Source: an uncultured Planctomycetota bacterium
Lineage (GTDB): Bacteria > Planctomycetota > Phycisphaerae > UBA1845 > Fen-1342
Direction: 5' to 3'
DNA: 48,201 nt
Assembly: GCA_900696535.1 (NCBI GenBank)
Contig: CAADGM010000205.1
Location: forward strand, 1-48,201
Shown here: piece by piece, positions 38,572 to 45,578 of the stretch
How the letters are laid out: the number at the start of each line of letters is the position of its first letter
Numbering within the stretch: the first letter of the stretch is position 1
Position numbers and translations under genes: made by a program
Notes under the pieces: model-generated
Told to the model about the DNA's origin: nothing
What the model saw: only the letters and a program-made list of their open reading frames with translations
Database searches by the model: none

Positions 38572-38994
38572 TTACTCGCGAACGGGCGCCTCCCGCCCGG
38601 GTCGCTCGCCGTCGGACCGCAGGGCCGCCGCCAGCTTCTCCACCAGGGCGGTGGCCGTGTACGGCTTGTGCACGAAGCCAGCCAGGGCCGCGTCGGCGAA
38701 CTGCACCGACGCCTCCTGCTCGCTGTACCCGGTTGAAACAACGACGCGCGCATCAGGCTTGATCGCCCGCAACTCCCGGAACACCGTCTCGCCCTTCATC
38801 CCGGGCATGTTGATGTCGAGAAGCACGGCGTCGATCTCGTCCACATGGCGTCGAAACAGGTCGATGCCCTGCGGGCCGTCGGCCGCCGAGAGCACCTGGC
38901 CCCCCCGCCGCTCCAGCACCGCATGCACCACCTCCCGCACGTCCTCCTCGTCGTCGATCACCAGAACCGTGCTGCCGCGAATCCGCGGGGGGGG
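38572..38994 (-). pseudogene. Receiver domain separated from the histidine kinase by a frameshift
   Basis: In the frame next to the kinase's, starting at the run of eight C, the sequence encodes a complete response-regulator receiver domain: STVLVIDDEEDVREVVHAVL, phospho-acceptor in AVLLDINMPGMKG, VVVSTGYSEQEA and GFVHKPYTATALVEKL. It lacks its own start codon and ribosome binding site, so it is readable only as the C-terminal domain of the kinase. Removing one C (seven instead of eight) fuses the two into one hybrid kinase of about 812 residues. Alternatives: sequencing or assembly error in the homopolymer, a true inactivating mutation, phase variation or programmed frameshifting. Confidence 0.8.
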
Positions 38995-41008
38995 CGGCGA
39001 CGGAGCCGTCCGCCTCGCCAACGCGGGCCGCGACCGCCGGCAAGTACACTCGAAACGTCGTCCCGGCGCCGACCGCGCTCTCGCAACTGATCGCCCCGTG
39101 GTGGTTGCGCAGGATCCCGAGGATCGCCGAGAGCCCCAGCCCGCGCCCGGTGAACTTCGTCGTGAAGAACGGCTCGAACATGCGCCGCATGACCTGCGGC
39201 GGCATGCCGCACCCGTTGTCGCGAACTTCGACCACGACGTACGGCCCCGGCCGCACAAGCTGCTCCGGAAAGCGTGTGGCCACGTCGTGGTCGCTCAGCA
39301 TCTCGGCCCAGGTCGACACGACCACCTCCCCCGCCGCGTCGCCGATGGCCTCCGCGCCGTTGATCAGCAGGTTCATGATGACCTGCTGCATCTGGCCGCT
39401 GTCGGCCTCGACGACGGGCAGGTTGGTACCCGTGTTGATCCGCAGCGAGACGTTCTTCGGGATGGCCGCGCTCGCAAAGACTGCCAGCTCGGAGATAAGC
39501 CCGTTGAGGTCCATCACCTGCACGTCGGTCGTCGTTCGGCCGGCGTAGGCGAGCATGCGCTGGGTCAGGTCCGTCGCCCGGCGACCCGCGCTGACCACGC
39601 GCTCGAGCATCGGCCGCAGCGGCGAGTCCGGGCCGACGTGCTCGATCGCCAGGGACGCATTGCCCAGGATGCCGACGAGCAGGTTGTTGAAGTCGTGCGC
39701 GATGCCCCCGGCGAGCACGCCCAGGCTCTCGAGCTTCTGCGACTGGCGGAGCTGCGCCTCGAGCCGCTCGCGCTCGGAGACGTCGCGGATCAGCGTCGCC
39801 ACGGCCTGGACGCCGCCGCCCGAGTCCGGCAGTACCGTGCTGTACCACTCACAGGTGATTTCGCCGCCGCCCTTGCGGCGATTCAGCAGGACCGCGTGCT
39901 GGCTGGCCCGGCCGGCGATGATCGCCTGGCAGAGGGACTCGAACGCGGCCTGGGCGCCCGGGGGCACGATCAACTCCCTGGCGCTGCGGCCGAGCGCTTC
40001 TTCCTCGGTGTAGCCGAAGACCGCGGTCGCGGCGGGGTTCCACTCCAGCACGTTGAAGTCGCGCGACCAGACCACGTATCCGAGCGGCATCCCGCTGACC
40101 AGCGACTCGAACCGCTGGGTGGCCTCGCGCAGGCGCTCCTCGGTTCGCCGGCGGTAGCTGATGTCTGTCGATGTGCCGGTGATCCCGATGACCTGGCCGT
40201 GCTCGTCGCGCCGCGGCGTGGCGTTGACGCTGAGGTAAACGATCGAGCCGTCCTTGCGCACGTGCTCGGTTTCGAACTGGCGGCGTGGCTTGCCCTGGCG
40301 CAGCTCGTCGAGCACCTGCGCGGCCTGGTCGCGCATTGGAGGGCGAACAAGATCGAGAACGCTCGTGCCGAGCAGCTCGTGCGGCTCTCGGCCGTAGATA
40401 ACCTGTGCAGCGGCGTTGACGTACGTCCAGCGCCCCTCCAGGTCGAGCGACCAGATCAGGTCGCGAGAGGCTTCGACCAGGTTGCGGTAGTGCGCCTCGC
40501 TATCCCGCAGGGCCACCTCGGCCCTGGCGTGCTCCGACTCGTCTCGCACCAGGCATGCCAGGCGCGTGTGCTCTCCCCACCCCGACAGTACGACGCTGAC
40601 CTCGACCGGCACCGGCGGTCCGCTCCGGCTGCGCAGCGTGGCACGGAACCGGCGCGGCCCGGTCATCGCCGCCGCGGCAACTGCCTCGCTGTCGGCGCCG
40701 GTCGAGCACTCGAGGTCCTCGATTCGTCGCGCGAGCAGCTCATCCGCCGTGAAACCGAGCAGTCGGCAGAACGCGTCGTTGACGTGGAGGAACCGCCCAT
40801 CCGCGCCGAGCACGAAGTAGCCGTCGGGGGCGTGATCCAGAACGTCCGCGCTCTGGCGAGCTGTTACCTCCAGGTTCGACGCCCGGGCTTCGAGCTCCGC
40901 GCGCGCGCTGCGCTCCGCCGCCAGCGCGTGGCGTGTGCGCCGCAGCACAGCAAGCAGTGCCGCCGCGAGAACCGCGAGTCCGGCGATGACTCCGATCATC
41001 GCGCCCAT
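38753..41008 (-). CDS. PAS-containing histidine kinase (kinase part of a frameshifted hybrid kinase)
   Basis: Membrane-anchored sensor kinase, 751 residues as it reads here. N-terminal hydrophobic segment IGVIAGLAVLAAALLAVL, a short coiled coil, then three PAS domains (about 55-165, 170-285 and 298-415; for example APDGYFVLGADGRFLHVND). H-box KLESLGVLAGGIAHDFNNLL with His439 (numbered from the GTG at 41011), and the HATPase with EVRDNGCGMPPQVMRRM, FTGRGLGLSAILGI and GAGTTFRVYLP (about 540-660). After this the frame runs through a run of eight C (38994-38987) into low-complexity Gly/Arg sequence and stops at 38753. The receiver domain lies in the neighbouring frame, so a full-length product needs a one-base change or a ribosomal shift. 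The ATG at 41008 has GGAG six bases upstream. It follows the pseudokinase gene by about 40 bases. Confidence 0.85.
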   Translation of the reverse strand: MGAMIGVIAGLAVLAAALLAVLRRTRHALAAERSARAELEARASNLEVTARQSADVLDHAPDGYFVLGADGRFLHVNDAFCRLLGFTADELLARRIEDLECSTGADSEAVAAAAMTGPRRFRATLRSRSGPPVPVEVSVVLSGWGEHTRLACLVRDESEHARAEVALRDSEAHYRNLVEASRDLIWSLDLEGRWTYVNAAAQVIYGREPHELLGTSVLDLVRPPMRDQAAQVLDELRQGKPRRQFETEHVRKDGSIVYLSVNATPRRDEHGQVIGITGTSTDISYRRRTEERLREATQRFESLVSGMPLGYVVWSRDFNVLEWNPAATAVFGYTEEEALGRSARELIVPPGAQAAFESLCQAIIAGRASQHAVLLNRRKGGGEITCEWYSTVLPDSGGGVQAVATLIRDVSERERLEAQLRQSQKLESLGVLAGGIAHDFNNLLVGILGNASLAIEHVGPDSPLRPMLERVVSAGRRATDLTQRMLAYAGRTTTDVQVMDLNGLISELAVFASAAIPKNVSLRINTGTNLPVVEADSGQMQQVIMNLLINGAEAIGDAAGEVVVSTWAEMLSDHDVATRFPEQLVRPGPYVVVEVRDNGCGMPPQVMRRMFEPFFTTKFTGRGLGLSAILGILRNHHGAISCESAVGAGTTFRVYLPAVAARVGEADGSVAAPPADSRQHGSGDRRRGGRAGGGACGAGAAGGPGALGGRRPAGHRPVSTPCGRDRRRASRHQHARDEGRDGVPGVAGDQA

Positions 41009-41048
41009 CACGCGCTCCGGAACTCGGCGTTGTCAGCCCGCGTCGCGC

Positions 41049-43517
41049 TCACGAGCTGGCTCCATTACCGCCGGAACTTCCCGCCTCGGCGCGGCGCAGG
41101 CAGTCATCGGCCTCGTCGACGCGGCCGGCCCGCCGCAGGACATCCGCCTTCTGCCGCCAGGCCGCCGCCTCCATTCGGGCGTTCTCATGCTGCCGGGCGA
41201 GCTCGATCCGCCGCTCCGCACAGCGGACGGCCTCGTCCAGGTCGCCGAGCTGAAGGTTCAGCTCGACGATGAACTCGTAGAGCCGGGCCAGGCCGTTCCA
41301 GAAGCGGGTCTCCTCCAGCGCGTTGAGCGCTACCGCGAAGGCGCTTTTGGCGTCCTCGATGCGTCCCTCCAGCATCGCGCAGCGGCCCAAGTGCATCTGC
41401 GTCGTTCCGACGGTCGTGCGGTCACCCAGTTCCGCCGCGATGGCCAGCGCGCGACGGTAGTGCGTGCGGGCCTCGGCGAAGCGGCGTTGATCGACCAGCA
41501 CATTGCCCATGCCGTTATACGGCCCGACGAGCGAGGTCTGGGCCCCGTACGCGCGGTGGGTGTCCACCGCGAGGCGGAACGCGCGCTCAGCTTCCGCGAG
41601 CAGACCGCGACGCATGAGCACGAATCCGAGGTTGTTCGAGATCTGCGCCAACTCGACGGACGTGCCCAGGTGACGCGCGAGTTCCGCCGCACGCTCGTAG
41701 TGAGACTGCGCCTCGTCGTAGTTCCCGCGGAAGTAGTACATCACGCCCAGGTTCGCGAGCACCTCCATGCGCATTCGCTCGTCCCGCCGGCCGAGCGCGA
41801 TCGCCTCCTGGCGACGATGACAGGACTCGGCTTCCGCGTATCGCCCCATGCGCGCGTAGCACGCCCCGGCGAACCCGACCGGCTCGGCGAAGTCGGGGTC
41901 CAGTTGCCCGGCCTGCTCGGCCAGCGCCGCCGCCTCGGCGTAGTCGCCGCGCACGAACGCCTGCCGCGCCCGCACCATGCGCTCGCGAGCCTCCGGGGCC
42001 CCCGATTCACTCTGGGCCGCCTCGGTCATCGCGCTCCGCGTGAGCCCGAGCATGCTCGCGACGCGCTGAACGATCGTCTCCTCGATATCGCCCAGCGACT
42101 CGATCGTCCCGGCCAGCTCGCCGACCGACTCCCGTCCGACTTGCCCGTCGCGGAGCAGATCAACGCAGACAACCAGGTGGTGCCCCTCCAGCCGGTACCG
42201 CCCGATCAGGAGCGTCCCGGCGCCGCACATCCGCGCCGCGGCGAGGACGCGGTGATCGTCGAGCCCCTCGTGCGGCGGCGTCAGCCGCTCGAGCACTCCA
42301 CTCATGCTTTCCGTGTCCGTGACGTATAGGCCGGGGATCTCGCTCAGGCCGCGTGCGATCCGGCGGGCGATCGCGTGCCCGATCCAGTCGGCCGGCCCCG
42401 GCCCCAACTCATTGCGGAGCGTCAGCACCCCGAACCCGCGCGGATGAAGGATCTCGGCCGAGATCACGGTCCGCCGGCTGCGGGACTCGTCCCCACCGGC
42501 GGCCAGCGCCGACGCGAACTCCGAGGCGCTGGCAAACCGGGCCGACGGATCAGGGGCAAGGAGCTGCGTGATGGCATCCGTGAACCACGGCGGCGGCCGG
42601 TCGTCGGCTCCGTCGGGCCACGAGATCGAGGCAGAGCGCGCCTGGAGAAGTCGCGAGAAGGCACTTGGGCCGGCGTGAGGCGGCCGCCCCGTCACCAGAT
42701 GGAAGATCGTGGCGCCGAGGGCGTACAGGTCACGCGCCGGGGCGCGCGCAGCCCGCGCCTCGAAGCGCTCCGGCGCGTCGTACAGCGCCACGTCCTCGAA
42801 CCCGCAGCAAGCGGCGCCGCCGCTTCGCCACTCGCCGGCGGCAATCAGAGCGGGCGCCAGGCCGGAGACCCGAGTCCGTCCGTCGATGCCCAGCAGCAGG
42901 TTTGACGGGCGGATCCGACCGTGCGTCAGGCCCGCCCGGTGGATCGCCTCAAGTCCGTGCGCGGCGTCCTGAGCCACATGCACGGCTTGACGCCAACCGA
43001 GCGCCTCGCCCGCATGCACGAGCGTCGCCAGGTCCAATCCGTCGACGAACTCCGTCACCAAGTACACGCGCCCGTCGGCCGCGTCGGCCTCGAGCAGGCG
43101 AACGATGTGGGGATCGTTAACGCGGTACGCGAGTCGCGCGGCACGGACGGCCTCTGACGCCCACACCGGGTCACCCGCCACCGACCGGGACACAAACCGG
43201 ACCACGCAGGGTTGATTTACGAGGCGGTGAGCGGCCAGGTACGTCCCGCACGCGGGGGTGACGCGCAGGGCCCGCACCAGGCGGTACTTCCCGCGAAGAA
43301 TGCCGCCGGGGACGAAGGCGACCGCCGGCGAGGCCGGGCATTCCGTAAGTTGTTTTCGTGAAAAGTGTTCTGGAGTAATAGCGGAGCAGGTCGGACAGCG
43401 GCGCGCCAGCCCGCCGGCGATCGCCCGGGCGTGCTCGTGGCGGCACTCCGCCGGGCGGGCCTCCTGGACCGGCGGCGCGGTGGCGGGACACGCGGGCTGA
43501 CCTGCCAGTTCCACCAA
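41049..43517 (-). CDS. Pseudokinase-TPR protein (eukaryotic-type Ser/Thr kinase fold with lost catalytic motifs)
   Basis: Protein of 822 residues. A possible zinc ribbon (Cys41, Cys44, Cys60) is followed by a protein-kinase-like domain (about 75-355), a middle domain (about 360-500; GPADWIGHAIARRIARGLSE, GTLLIGRYRLEGHHL) resembling the TolB-like module of other bacterial kinases, and about eight TPR repeats (about 510-815; for example GNYDEAQSHYERAAELARHL). The fold is recognisable (YLVTEFVDGLDLATLV; DAPERFEARA; RDLYALGATIFHLVTGRPP), but all three key motifs are lost: the VAIK Lys is Arg107, HRDLKPEN reads HGRIRPSN with the Asp replaced, and DFG reads GLA. It is therefore likely to be a scaffold or sensor, not an active kinase. 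The GTG at 43517 has GAGG nine bases upstream. The histidine kinase follows after about 40 bases. Confidence 0.85.
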   Translation of the reverse strand: MVELAGQPACPATAPPVQEARPAECRHEHARAIAGGLARRCPTCSAITPEHFSRKQLTECPASPAVAFVPGGILRGKYRLVRALRVTPACGTYLAAHRLVNQPCVVRFVSRSVAGDPVWASEAVRAARLAYRVNDPHIVRLLEADAADGRVYLVTEFVDGLDLATLVHAGEALGWRQAVHVAQDAAHGLEAIHRAGLTHGRIRPSNLLLGIDGRTRVSGLAPALIAAGEWRSGGAACCGFEDVALYDAPERFEARAARAPARDLYALGATIFHLVTGRPPHAGPSAFSRLLQARSASISWPDGADDRPPPWFTDAITQLLAPDPSARFASASEFASALAAGGDESRSRRTVISAEILHPRGFGVLTLRNELGPGPADWIGHAIARRIARGLSEIPGLYVTDTESMSGVLERLTPPHEGLDDHRVLAAARMCGAGTLLIGRYRLEGHHLVVCVDLLRDGQVGRESVGELAGTIESLGDIEETIVQRVASMLGLTRSAMTEAAQSESGAPEARERMVRARQAFVRGDYAEAAALAEQAGQLDPDFAEPVGFAGACYARMGRYAEAESCHRRQEAIALGRRDERMRMEVLANLGVMYYFRGNYDEAQSHYERAAELARHLGTSVELAQISNNLGFVLMRRGLLAEAERAFRLAVDTHRAYGAQTSLVGPYNGMGNVLVDQRRFAEARTHYRRALAIAAELGDRTTVGTTQMHLGRCAMLEGRIEDAKSAFAVALNALEETRFWNGLARLYEFIVELNLQLGDLDEAVRCAERRIELARQHENARMEAAAWRQKADVLRRAGRVDEADDCLRRAEAGSSGGNGASS

Positions 43518-43561
43518 GCGGCGCCTCGTCAGGAAATCGCGTCTGGAGTTCTTATCGGCGC

Positions 43562-43590
43562 TTGACTACCGACTTCCCAAGTGGCAATAT
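43562..43590 (+). promoter_or_regulatory. Candidate promoter for the small ORF at 43798
   Basis: TTGACT (43562-43567), a 17-base spacer and CAATAT (43585-43590). The -35 box matches five of six positions but the -10 only three, so this is tentative. The leader would be about 200 bases. Confidence 0.35.
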
Positions 43591-43763
43591 CCCGGACAGC
43601 GTTTGCGAGCGAGCAAGTTACATAGTATGGGACCGCGTAGCTTTTGCGCGATGTCGCGGCGCGGCGCACCATCATCACTTCCAAGACTTGCCCGCTAAAC
43701 GAGCAGTACGTCTCCGGCGCGAGCGTCACGCCAGAGACTTTCGCTGTCCGTCTGGGATCATGT

Positions 43764-43783
43764 GCTGACACATCACTGTCAGC
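43764..43783 (+). promoter_or_regulatory. Inverted repeat touching the small ORF's ribosome binding site
   Basis: Perfect 7-bp repeat GCTGACA / TGTCAGC with a 6-base loop. Its right arm ends directly at the GGAGGAG ribosome binding site (43784-43790). It could be an operator or an RNA hairpin controlling translation. Confidence 0.45.
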
Positions 43784-43797
43784 GGAGGAGCAGACCC

Positions 43798-43902
43798 ATG
43801 TTCGCGACTCTACTCTCCCTCACCGAGCAGATCTGGAATTTCGGCATCAACGTGATCGGTCCGGCGTTCATCGACGTCGTCACGTGCGGCAAGTGGTACT
43901 AG
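43798..43902 (+). CDS. Small hydrophobic protein, 34 residues, unknown
   Basis: Very short ORF with a strong ribosome binding site (GGAGGAG, seven bases before the ATG). The product begins MFATLLSLTEQIWNFGINVI and ends FIDVVTCGKWY: mostly hydrophobic, with one Cys and an aromatic C-terminus, so it may be a single membrane-associated helix. It has no recognisable homologue by eye. It lies divergent from the pseudokinase gene and is closed by a hairpin at 44027-44052, so it looks like an independent transcription unit. The features argue for translation, but coding is unproven; a peptide signal, a membrane micro-protein or a chance ORF are all possible. Confidence 0.5.
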   Translation: MFATLLSLTEQIWNFGINVIGPAFIDVVTCGKWY

Positions 43903-44026
43903 GGGCACGTGCGATGATCGAAGTCATCACCGACCTCGACGACCTCTCTATCGACGCCTCGCGTTAGTAGTCTTGAGGCGGTCTTAGAGAATTTTTGCGC
44001 GACCTCGGGCGACGTCCGGGGCAGGG

Positions 44027-44052
44027 GGTGTGTGCGCTTGCATGCACACACC
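44027..44052. terminator. Stem-loop between the small ORF and the GH20-like gene
   Basis: Perfect 9-bp repeat GGTGTGTGC / GCACACACC with an 8-base loop, 24 bases past the GH20-like stop on the minus strand and 125 bases past the small ORF on the plus strand. Placed to end both transcripts. Confidence 0.6.
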
Positions 44053-44075
44053 TCGAACTTCGGCCCGGACCGTAG

Positions 44076-45578
44076 TTACCGCTGTAGCGTCGTCATCCAG
44101 CCTGCCTGGTCGGTCCTCAGATACCGGTCATTGACCAGCGTCTGAAACGCCGGGCGATATGCCCCCGGCGGGAGAGTCCTAACCCGCGTCCGAACGGTCT
44201 CCACGAACGCCAGCCCGGCGTTAAGTCGCTCCAGGTCCACGTGCGACCCACCCCACTCCGCCGCCGCCTGCAAGCCCGGGCGCAATCGGGCCAGAATGCG
44301 GGCCGCGACGGCAAGTTGCTCCGAACACGCCTCCAGGTCGCGGTCGACGTACGCGCGATAGGCGTCCTCTACCGCTCGCACCCAGAGCACCCCCACTCGG
44401 TGAAGCTCCGACGGGAACCGGAGGGGGTGCCCGGACGGTAGCGCCGCGTCCACCTCCCCGCACAAGGCGAGAATCCGGTCCCCCACCCGCCCGGTGGCCT
44501 CGTCGCGCCACACGACCCACAGCCGGAACGGGTTGAGCCGCAGCACGAGTGCGTCGCGCAACCGCCGCCAGCGCCCGGGGCGCAGGAAGTCGGAAACAGA
44601 CGGGATCCCGTTTCCGAGAATCTCGGCGGCGTAGGTGTACGCCGGCCCGGCCGTCGCGAGCAGCGCCCGGATCCAGTCCTCGCGGCGAGACAGCCGCCGC
44701 CCGGCCGCGTACACCAGCGGGATCGAGGCCGCGTAACTTGTGAAGTGGTGATTCTCCCACGTCGTGACGAGGACGCCGAGTGCTCCTTCAGCGGCCGCGT
44801 CTTCGGCGTGTTCGTCGATGTTGGTGCGGGTCAGGTCGAGGTGGCACCAGACCGAGTCGTACGTGTGCACAGCCGGGCAGCAGATCACATCAAACCCGGC
44901 GGCGCGCAGGCGACGCGTGGTGTCCCGCGGCCGATGGTCGTACTGCCAGTCGAACAGAAGCGTCTCGCGGGGCAGGTGGTCGAGCGCTTCGGGAAACAGC
45001 AGCACCATGTCCGACCAGAGCCCCGGGCGGCGGCCCGCGGCCAACACGCGGCGGCACATCTCGCCGTAGTACTGCCCGAAGAGGCCCGCCTTGCCGATCT
45101 CCGCGAGCCGCGCCGCGCACGCCGGGCACTCGCCGAGCTGGCGGGCTTCGTCGCCGCCGAGATGAACCCACTCGTCGTCAAAAACGCTCAGTGCATCCGA
45201 GACCAGGCCCCAAGCGAACTCGCGGCACTCGGGCCGCGTCGCGCAGGTCTGCTCGCTTCCCCAGGTCGTGTCGCTCTCGCGGAGCCACTGCCCGCCCTCG
45301 GCCCGAATGAAGCCCTCCATGTGCCCAAGTGTGTTCAGGAATGGGATGATCCGCAGGCCGCGCGCCTTGTGGCGGGCGATCAGGCGACGGGCGACTTCGG
45401 GCGTGAGGCAGGCCGGCCCCGCGGCCCAGGGCGCGGACGGGTAGGCGAAGCGGTGCTCCAGGTAGCGCGCGACGGCCTGGTAGCCGACCTCACGTGAGCG
45501 CGTGAAGATCTCGTCGAGCCGTTCCTCGCTGGGCGATTGCTCGCGGGCGAGGTCGTACATCCAGCCGATGAAGCTCAC
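44076..45578 (-). CDS. Glycoside hydrolase family 20-like protein (beta-hexosaminidase type)
   Basis: Protein of 500 residues with a TIM-barrel hydrolase domain. The catalytic Asp-Glu pair of GH20 is clear in EWVHLGGDEARQLGECPACA (Asp143, Glu144), preceded by ARGLRIIPFLNTLGHMEGFI and GWMYDLAREQSPSEERLDEI, where barrel strand 1 fits. The C-terminal 200 residues are helical and unrecognised. GH20 enzymes remove terminal N-acetylglucosamine or N-acetylgalactosamine. I choose the GTG at 45578, because GGGAG lies eight bases upstream; the frame is open to 45635 but lies next to the tRNA. No signal peptide is apparent, so it may act in the cytoplasm on imported sugars. It starts 58 bases after tRNA-Leu. 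Confidence 0.82.
   Translation of the reverse strand: MSFIGWMYDLAREQSPSEERLDEIFTRSREVGYQAVARYLEHRFAYPSAPWAAGPACLTPEVARRLIARHKARGLRIIPFLNTLGHMEGFIRAEGGQWLRESDTTWGSEQTCATRPECREFAWGLVSDALSVFDDEWVHLGGDEARQLGECPACAARLAEIGKAGLFGQYYGEMCRRVLAAGRRPGLWSDMVLLFPEALDHLPRETLLFDWQYDHRPRDTTRRLRAAGFDVICCPAVHTYDSVWCHLDLTRTNIDEHAEDAAAEGALGVLVTTWENHHFTSYAASIPLVYAAGRRLSRREDWIRALLATAGPAYTYAAEILGNGIPSVSDFLRPGRWRRLRDALVLRLNPFRLWVVWRDEATGRVGDRILALCGEVDAALPSGHPLRFPSELHRVGVLWVRAVEDAYRAYVDRDLEACSEQLAVAARILARLRPGLQAAAEWGGSHVDLERLNAGLAFVETVRTRVRTLPPGAYRPAFQTLVNDRYLRTDQAGWMTTLQR

Follow-up and report, generated by a model that had tools for sequence, protein, structure and literature searches.

A conserved pair of micropeptide ORFs and its candidate kinase-TPR partner in the Phycisphaerae order UBA1845

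Two very short open reading frames, ORF1 and ORF2, are conserved side by side in one order of the Phycisphaerae. Both were read in 38 genomes of this order, 22 of the 27 in family f1 and 16 of the 51 in family f8, and on comparative grounds they are almost certainly a real, translated pair. At the level of sequence, the comparison reveals two conserved coding ORFs in a fixed order, with Shine-Dalgarno (SD) sites, a promoter site in f1, synteny with a kinase-TPR gene in f1, and co-occurrence with that gene in f8. The preferred, though tentative, explanation is a conserved bicistronic micro-operon whose peptides would act on the co-inherited kinase-TPR protein. The pair was met in a stretch of 48,201 nucleotides of planctomycete DNA, the whole of which is called the window here and to which all coordinates refer. 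An excerpt of PMC11266412 places family FEN-1342 in order UBA1845 and notes that the order has scarcely been described and is encountered in larger metagenomic datasets; the terms 'small protein', 'kinase' and 'quorum' are absent from the excerpt.

ORF1 lies on the forward strand at 43798..43902 and its predicted product is a hydrophobic, acidic micropeptide of 34 amino acids, MFATLLSLTEQIWNFGINVIGPAFIDVVTCGKWY, that recurs in relatives. The original prediction had described a 34-codon ORF with a well-placed GGAGGAG, and this is what is read in the sequence: an ATG at 43798, a TAG stop at 43902, and the SD site GGAGGAG (43784..43790, forward strand) 7 nt ahead of the ATG. The single Cys that it reported is also seen in the translation. 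Cys is not general in ORF1, and any Cys is found in 15 of the 38 genomes. Across these genomes, ORF1 is 20-34 amino acids long with a mean GRAVY of 1.26, and its net charge ranges from -1 to -6, negative in 38/38. Lys and Arg together account for 15 of 954 residues. The N-terminal part of ORF1 is free to vary, and the conserved motif lies near the C-terminus, where the window has FIDVVT (43867..43884, forward strand). FID is kept there in 35/38 genomes, the exceptions being G013, G019, and G096. The tail reads F-[IV]-[DE]-x-[IVL]-[TS] in 18 of the 22 f1 genomes and FIDQIPA in 13 of the 16 f8 genomes. In an AF2 model, ORF1 is a single helix over residues 2-29 (mean pLDDT of 75). ORF1 probably sits in or on a membrane, into which it may insert.

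ORF2 starts with an ATG 11 nt past the ORF1 stop and was overlooked in the earlier work. It occupies 43914..43967 on the forward strand, ends in TAG, and would encode a 17-amino-acid acidic micropeptide, MIEVITDLDDLSIDASR, the more conserved partner of the two. In the 38 genomes ORF2 is 14-23 amino acids long (16 in 27 of them), has the consensus MIEVITxIDDIxIDxR, and carries a negative net charge in 37. Position 6 is Thr in 36/38 and Ser in 2/38, a residue that was in part demanded by the search patterns; in 8 genomes read without patterns, it is Thr in 6 and Ser in 2. The motif I-[DE]-x-I-T occurs both in the ORF1 tail and at the head of ORF2. Scored by BLOSUM, the best match of the tail to ORF2 averages 12.9, compared to a mean of 5.0 and a maximum of 6.8 for other ORF1 segments in 2000 draws. 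The tail and head motifs show no genome-by-genome co-variation, and their likeness is one shared motif observed many times, not 38 independent facts.

The single gene originally proposed is real as far as ORF1 is concerned, but the conserved unit consists of two genes, ORF1 and then ORF2. The gap between them measures 4-50 nt, its phases are distributed 15/12/11 over the 38 genomes, and all three stop codons are in use for both ORFs. Gaps in all three phases together with mixed stops indicate that ORF1 and ORF2 are independently translated, and these observations rule out a fusion by readthrough or frameshift. Two genomes carry additional copies. In G022 (L116), ORF1 and the ORF2-type frame are each present in three copies upstream of the kinase, as near-identical tandem repeats, where a lone ORF2-type frame is followed by three ORF1 copies, two of them with ORF2 after. 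In G069:C617 (L169), a second ORF1 copy with its own SD-like site ends in SIDQIPA, and the next stretch is loosely ORF2-like.

The distribution of the pair was established with several searches. A BLASTN search of 61 genomes with 43520-44076, which uses no amino-acid pattern, matched 6 relatives, and both ORFs are present in the same order in each. The five best matches outside the window genome fall at ORF2 and the sixth is two ranks lower; L008, ranked between the fifth and sixth locus, matches another part of the query. A strict ORF2 pattern matched 8 of the 27 family genomes. With 3 mismatches allowed, it matched 29 of 114 order genomes, and 23 of its 31 matches are pairs. Another 7 of the 31 lie inside longer ORFs and were dropped (L024, L025, L027, L031, L037, L038, and L039), and one, G010:C6, was left unread. 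A combined ORF1-tail/ORF2-head pattern matched 30 of the 114 order genomes with 30/30 matches being pairs and 0 in the reversed-pattern control; it failed on 6 of the 22 f1 pairs, and throughout, a pair counted as absent is one that the patterns missed. Many of the genomes are incomplete. The ORF1-tail pattern FIDQIPA-stop, with 1 mismatch, gave 16 matches in 15/114 genomes, among which G070 and the extra ORF1 copy of G069 were new. A match to this pattern in G019 is false and lies within a long ORF.

Reading upstream of the kinase in 9 f1 genomes without an ORF2-pattern match revealed the pair in 8 (G003, G004, G006, G011, G017, G019, G020, and G022) and ORF1 alone in G023; 4 of these 8 were later also matched by the combined pattern. 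In 397 genomes of the class, a looser ORF2 pattern gave 28 matches, of which 6 are not pairs and 22 are pairs that all fall in f1 or f8. In 392 genomes of the phylum, the combined pattern matched the window genome and gave two chance matches in longer frames (3 in all), with 1 in the reversed control. Pattern searches left 35 of the 51 f8 genomes without a detected pair, and they detected none in families f4 and f7. The named records matched are Phycisphaerae or Phycisphaerales MAGs in 7/7 cases, and usually one copy of the pair is detected per genome.

Translation signals and substitution patterns both point to coding function. An SD is located 5-16 nt before the start of ORF1 in 37/38 genomes and of ORF2 in 26/38, compared to a mean of 2.1/38 and a maximum of 9/38 at random nearby positions (2000 draws). 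For ORF2 codons 2-12, pN/pS in frame is 0.27 in 15 f1 genomes, selected for a head that reads EVIT or DVIT, and 0.28 in the 16 f8 genomes, versus 1.2-2.8 in the other two frames. With all 38 genomes, the values are 0.45 in frame versus 0.96 and 1.81. Most ORF2s were found by amino-acid pattern, which lowers pN in the first codons by construction; in loci found via ORF2 alone, the ORF1 tail is free of selection by the search. The synonymous/non-synonymous comparison among relatives that had been proposed for ORF1 gives a pN/pS for this tail of 0.195 in frame versus 0.77 and 1.96. The proposed conservation check in relatives likewise found the frame and start of ORF1 conserved. Genes of 17 and 34 codons generally fall under annotation size limits, and the suggestion that a real gene had been missed by size filters has held up: reading frame, start, SD site, and C-terminal motif are all found again in both f1 and f8. 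The status of ORF1 as a real gene is strongly supported by these comparisons.

In f1, the pair is divergent from the kinase-TPR gene and lies behind a conserved promoter. A sigma70-like site scoring at least 8/12 is found 188-249 nt upstream of ORF1 in 21/22 f1 genomes and 2/16 f8 genomes; shuffles of all 38 leaders give such a site in approximately 5.5/38. TTGAC occurs between -260 and -150 in 20/22 f1 and 0/16 f8 genomes. Two further elements mark the f1 leaders: TTATCGG (18/22 f1, 1/16 f8) and GAGCGAG (18/22 f1, 0/16 f8). The combination TTATCGG-N5-35-GAGCGAG was found in 11 of 12 f1 loci (199,265 bases), once each and always at the ORF1 promoter. In the window, the sigma70-like promoter TTGACT-N17-CAATAT (43562..43590, forward strand) is a degenerate version of the f1 promoter site, with a poor -10. 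TTATCGG (43552..43558, forward strand) lies upstream of the -35 in the window and between -35 and -10 in most f1 relatives, and GAGCGAG (43607..43613, forward strand) is close to the putative transcription start. Four genomes of the f8 genus g31 (G033, G053, G103, and G104) have TTGGATAGTCAAAGT in common, a stretch that lies 96-99 nt ahead of ORF1 and does not resemble the f1 promoter.

The leader and the region downstream also contain inverted repeats. The perfect inverted repeat that was said to end at the SD is present as the 7-bp GCTGACA-6-TGTCAGC (43764..43783, forward strand), which abuts 43784-43790. It is not conserved. Of the 38 homologous leaders, 2 have a stem of at least 7, made of other letters, compared to approximately 0.5/38 in shuffles; the fold z of the window stretch is -1.10, and the repeat is not clearly above chance. 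Because the repeat is absent from relatives, the translation control proposed for it is unsupported, and a role as a translation switch was rejected. As for the terminator-like hairpin reported downstream, a scan for a hairpin plus T-run found 0. An imperfect hairpin at 43945-43990 (z of -0.73), ahead of TTTTT, is a candidate terminator. A strong hairpin at 44027..44052 (z of -4.04), between ORF2 and a convergent GH20 gene, may be a terminator without a T-run. The predicted hairpin CACGTGC/GCACGTG (43881..43911, forward strand; arms 43881-43887 and 43905-43911; z of -2.71) spans the ORF1 end and, as folded, also takes in the ORF2 start. An Rfam scan of the window found two tRNAs and no match at the pair.

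The gene divergent from ORF1 had been called a pseudokinase gene, and this orientation is confirmed. It encodes a Zn-ribbon/kinase/TPR protein of 822 amino acids (41049..43517, reverse strand) whose catalytic motifs are degenerate in the window. The motif positions read VVRFV, HGRIRPSN, and SGL; the catalytic Lys, HRD, and DFG/DLG are lost. Among 29 other aligned kinases, DLG is found in 29, H-x-D-x-K-P in 29, and the Lys in 28 (one truncated row lacks the region), making the window copy the only degenerate one of the 30. The protein is about 750-850 amino acids long in uncut f1 relatives, and its Pfam domains are a kinase and TPRs (TPR_12 at 4.8e-28 and others). In the model of a relative's protein (mean pLDDT of 80), N-terminal strands precede the kinase, followed by a middle alpha/beta domain and, at 487-791, a TPR array. 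The best 50 Foldseek matches listed for this model are all kinases, including PknB-type/Stk1, and thus do not inform the TPR ligand. The protein resembles PknB-type Ser/Thr kinases with TPRs in that the relative's kinase domain fits PknB/Stk1 structures. It is unlike them in its N-terminal Cys-rich stretch, its middle alpha/beta domain, and its long TPR array.

Taking the most upstream start as its 5' end, the kinase gene lies 189-316 nt from the ORF1 start in 13 f1 loci. A PAS hybrid histidine-kinase gene (38572..41011, reverse strand) lies downstream of the kinase, and its frame is broken in the window. It is split into two frames at 38978-39027, through a mutational frameshift or an assembly error, and is a single frame in G016. 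A PAS histidine-kinase match is found beside the kinase in 21/26 f1 loci and 0/9 f8-type loci, some matches being only ~30% identical. Two kinase-TPR matches per genome are found in the f8 genomes G044, G047, G070, G079, G080, G090, G096, G097, and G099, and one in f1; the f1 genomes G002 and G020 have two matches each that are apparently halves of one gene.

The kinase-TPR protein is present in 24/27 f1 genomes and, at E 1e-40, in 42/114 order genomes. Over the 114 genomes, 36 have both the pair and the kinase, 2 the pair only, 6 the kinase only, and 70 neither. The genomes with a pair and no kinase match, G069 and G104, are about 90% complete. A kinase without a complete pair was found in G023 (ORF1 alone), G024 (place past the contig end), G031, G092, G097, and G105. 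Since 8 of the f1 pairs were first encountered by reading next to the kinase, f1 is no independent test of co-occurrence, and f8 is the cleaner one. In f8, 14 genomes have both, 2 the pair only, 3 the kinase only, and 32 neither (Fisher p of 5e-8, which ignores descent). The f8 pair and kinase are not adjacent and lie on separate contigs or 1.9 Mb apart (G081). Upstream of f8 kinases, no pair-like ORFs were found at 8 copies with at least 500 nt upstream; a ninth has only 26 nt. The flanks of the pair differ in f8. A CxxxCxxC gene (CNFxCxYC, radical-SAM-like by eye) is downstream on the opposite strand in 6 of 10 f8 loci viewed (L086, L087, L089, L091, L092, and L093).

Descent was considered with a ThrRS tree, in which the pair is found in f1 and two f8 clades. 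The tree was made with FastTree from one protein and covers 90 of the 114 genomes (108 have a match); G023, with ORF1 alone, and G024, whose place was unread, are treated as lacking the pair. Contrasts on starred branches (n=6) average 3.4 that agree, 0.3 that disagree, and 2.4 with no difference, with a median p of 0.25. The phylogeny-aware co-occurrence of pair and kinase is suggestive, not significant, and common descent alone could explain it.

Whether the pair and the kinase are functionally linked is evenly balanced, and counting against a link is that the window kinase lacks catalytic motifs while the window pair is intact. That two motif-sharing peptides lie beside a kinase-TPR protein, or occur with it, suggests a role for them as its ligands or substrates; that the pair is a direct ligand or substrate of the kinase is possible, yet rather doubtful. 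For the preferred explanation, the bicistronic micro-operon acting on this protein, we infer one mRNA, membrane insertion, binding, a direction of regulation, and phosphorylation. A dedicated promoter, in the region common with the divergent kinase-TPR gene, would produce a single mRNA whose leader is roughly 150-200 nt long. ORF1, 20-34 amino acids long, would be acidic and helical and insert into a membrane, leaving its C-terminal tail exposed; this tail, F-I-D-x-I-T/P, is where its conservation lies. ORF2, usually 16 amino acids, would be an acidic soluble peptide with I-[DE]-x-I-T and an invariant Thr/Ser. The shared motif would dock on the TPR or kinase domain of the Zn-ribbon/Ser-Thr-kinase/TPR protein. 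ORF1 would then bring the kinase to the membrane or inhibit it there, and ORF2 would serve as a soluble ligand, competitor, or phospho-acceptor of the kinase. The last of these roles is suggested because a constant Thr/Ser in the acidic ORF2 fits it.

The two peptides could instead be accessory subunits of a membrane complex, with the kinase co-occurrence reflecting mere shared ancestry. The usual single detected copy, the non-significant tree test, and the differing f8 flanks are all in keeping with this explanation. A core subunit would be expected to be distributed more widely than a pair that went undetected in 35/51 f8 genomes and in f4 and f7, though the patterns missed 6/22 f1 pairs, and accessory subunits are considered unlikely.

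A peptide pheromone system of the RRNPP type is distinctly unlikely. Here, ORF1 or its FID tail would be exported, processed, re-imported, and read by the kinase TPRs, and ORF2 would be a second, competing signal. According to an excerpt of PMC10075063, RRNPP propeptides are 10-100 amino acids long, with a basic N-terminus and then a hydrophobic stretch, and are exported, processed, and re-imported; receptors are 250-500 amino acids long with TPRs, and the receptor and propeptide genes are adjacent. Measured against this excerpt, ORF1 (20-34 amino acids) and ORF2 (14-23) are of propeptide size, and the neighbor has TPRs (TPR_12 at 4.8e-28, helical repeats at 487-791). As in Rgg-SHP/RRNPP systems of Firmicutes, a tiny hydrophobic ORF with an SD and a conserved C-terminus is located near a gene for a protein with C-terminal TPRs, divergent in f1 at 189-316 nt (13 loci), and the tandem copies in G022 would also fit. 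However, ORF1 has no basic N-terminus, is net negative in 38/38, and has 15 Lys/Arg in 954 residues. The would-be receptor is an approximately 800-amino-acid Ser/Thr kinase, 822 in the window, there is a second peptide, and the genes are adjacent in f1 and apart in f8. The nearly constant tail (FIDQIPA in 13/16 f8) is also unlike diversifying signals. Because two of the defining features given in the PMC10075063 excerpt are lacking, the pair is not regarded as a member of RRNPP/Rgg-SHP. The nearest analogue of ORF2 in an excerpt of PMC10518010 is the leaderless communication peptides with RopB, where a very short leaderless ORF is divergent from the receptor gene. ORF2 differs in being 14-23 amino acids long, acidic, and second in a bicistron, with a kinase as neighbor.

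Regulation of the neighboring hybrid histidine kinase, with ORF1 as a small MgrB-like membrane regulator and ORF2 as a cytosolic cofactor, is very unlikely. The model of ORF1 as one helix over residues 2-29 and the histidine-kinase match beside the kinase-TPR gene in 21/26 f1 loci are consistent with such a role. No histidine-kinase match lies beside the kinase in 9/9 f8-type loci, though 7 of the 9 genomes have the pair, which argues against it. No MgrB family match was found for the window ORF1 in Pfam or for three ORF1s in NCBIfam, both of which presumably hold an MgrB model. MgrB, which inhibits the sensor kinase PhoQ (excerpt of PMC8404706), is still the nearest analogue of ORF1, as a small, single-helix, membrane-type protein putatively acting on a kinase. 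It is 47 amino acids long; ORF1 is shorter, with little outside the helix, few lysines, and a second peptide.

That ORF1 is type I toxin-like, modulated by ORF2 and paired with an antisense RNA antitoxin that escaped detection, is highly improbable. Type I toxins are characterized in an excerpt of PMC8309996 as hydrophobic helical peptides of <60 amino acids with an antisense RNA antitoxin and toxicity on over-expression. ORF1, at 20-34 amino acids, is hydrophobic and modeled as a helix, and resembles the membrane-type toxins further in its strong SD and occasional tandem copies (G022, with an extra ORF1 in G069). The excerpt also includes three such toxins without positive C-terminal residues, and on its description ORF1 alone may be a toxin. 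The pair differs in having two ORFs, of which ORF2 is conserved even better, and in being confined to f1/f8 as searched; one copy is detected in nearly all genomes, conservation is long, and there is no Rfam match at the locus. Finally, it is scarcely credible that the pair is a non-coding RNA or that it supplies leader peptides or an attenuator to a downstream gene, and the leader was rejected: predicted hairpins do lie in and after the window pair and a CxxxCxxC gene follows in 6/10 f8 loci, but that gene is on the opposite strand, f1 downstream neighbors vary with several on the opposite strand, in-frame change is mostly synonymous, and the hairpin ahead of ORF1 lacks conservation.

ORF1 examples had no family matches in Pfam (window ORF1), NCBIfam (three ORF1s), PHROGs, or PDB sequences. 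Most ORF2s are too short for family searches; one 23-amino-acid ORF2 scanned against NCBIfam and PHROGs gave no match. Among the open-library literature matches listed, there was no description of the two-ORF pair. In its fullest form, the proposal would be a new bacterial peptide-kinase circuit in Planctomycetota, in which membrane-anchored and soluble micropeptides from one operon both dock via I-[DE]-x-I-T on the kinase-TPR protein and the soluble one is a phospho-acceptor or competitor; this complete circuit is improbable as it stands. Comparative analysis was sufficient to establish, for this order, a conserved pair along with a promoter site and a candidate partner. If the partner is right, the pair would supply a planctomycete Ser/Thr kinase with a defined peptide ligand, and peptide regulation in Planctomycetota would become testable with synthetic 16- to 34-mers.
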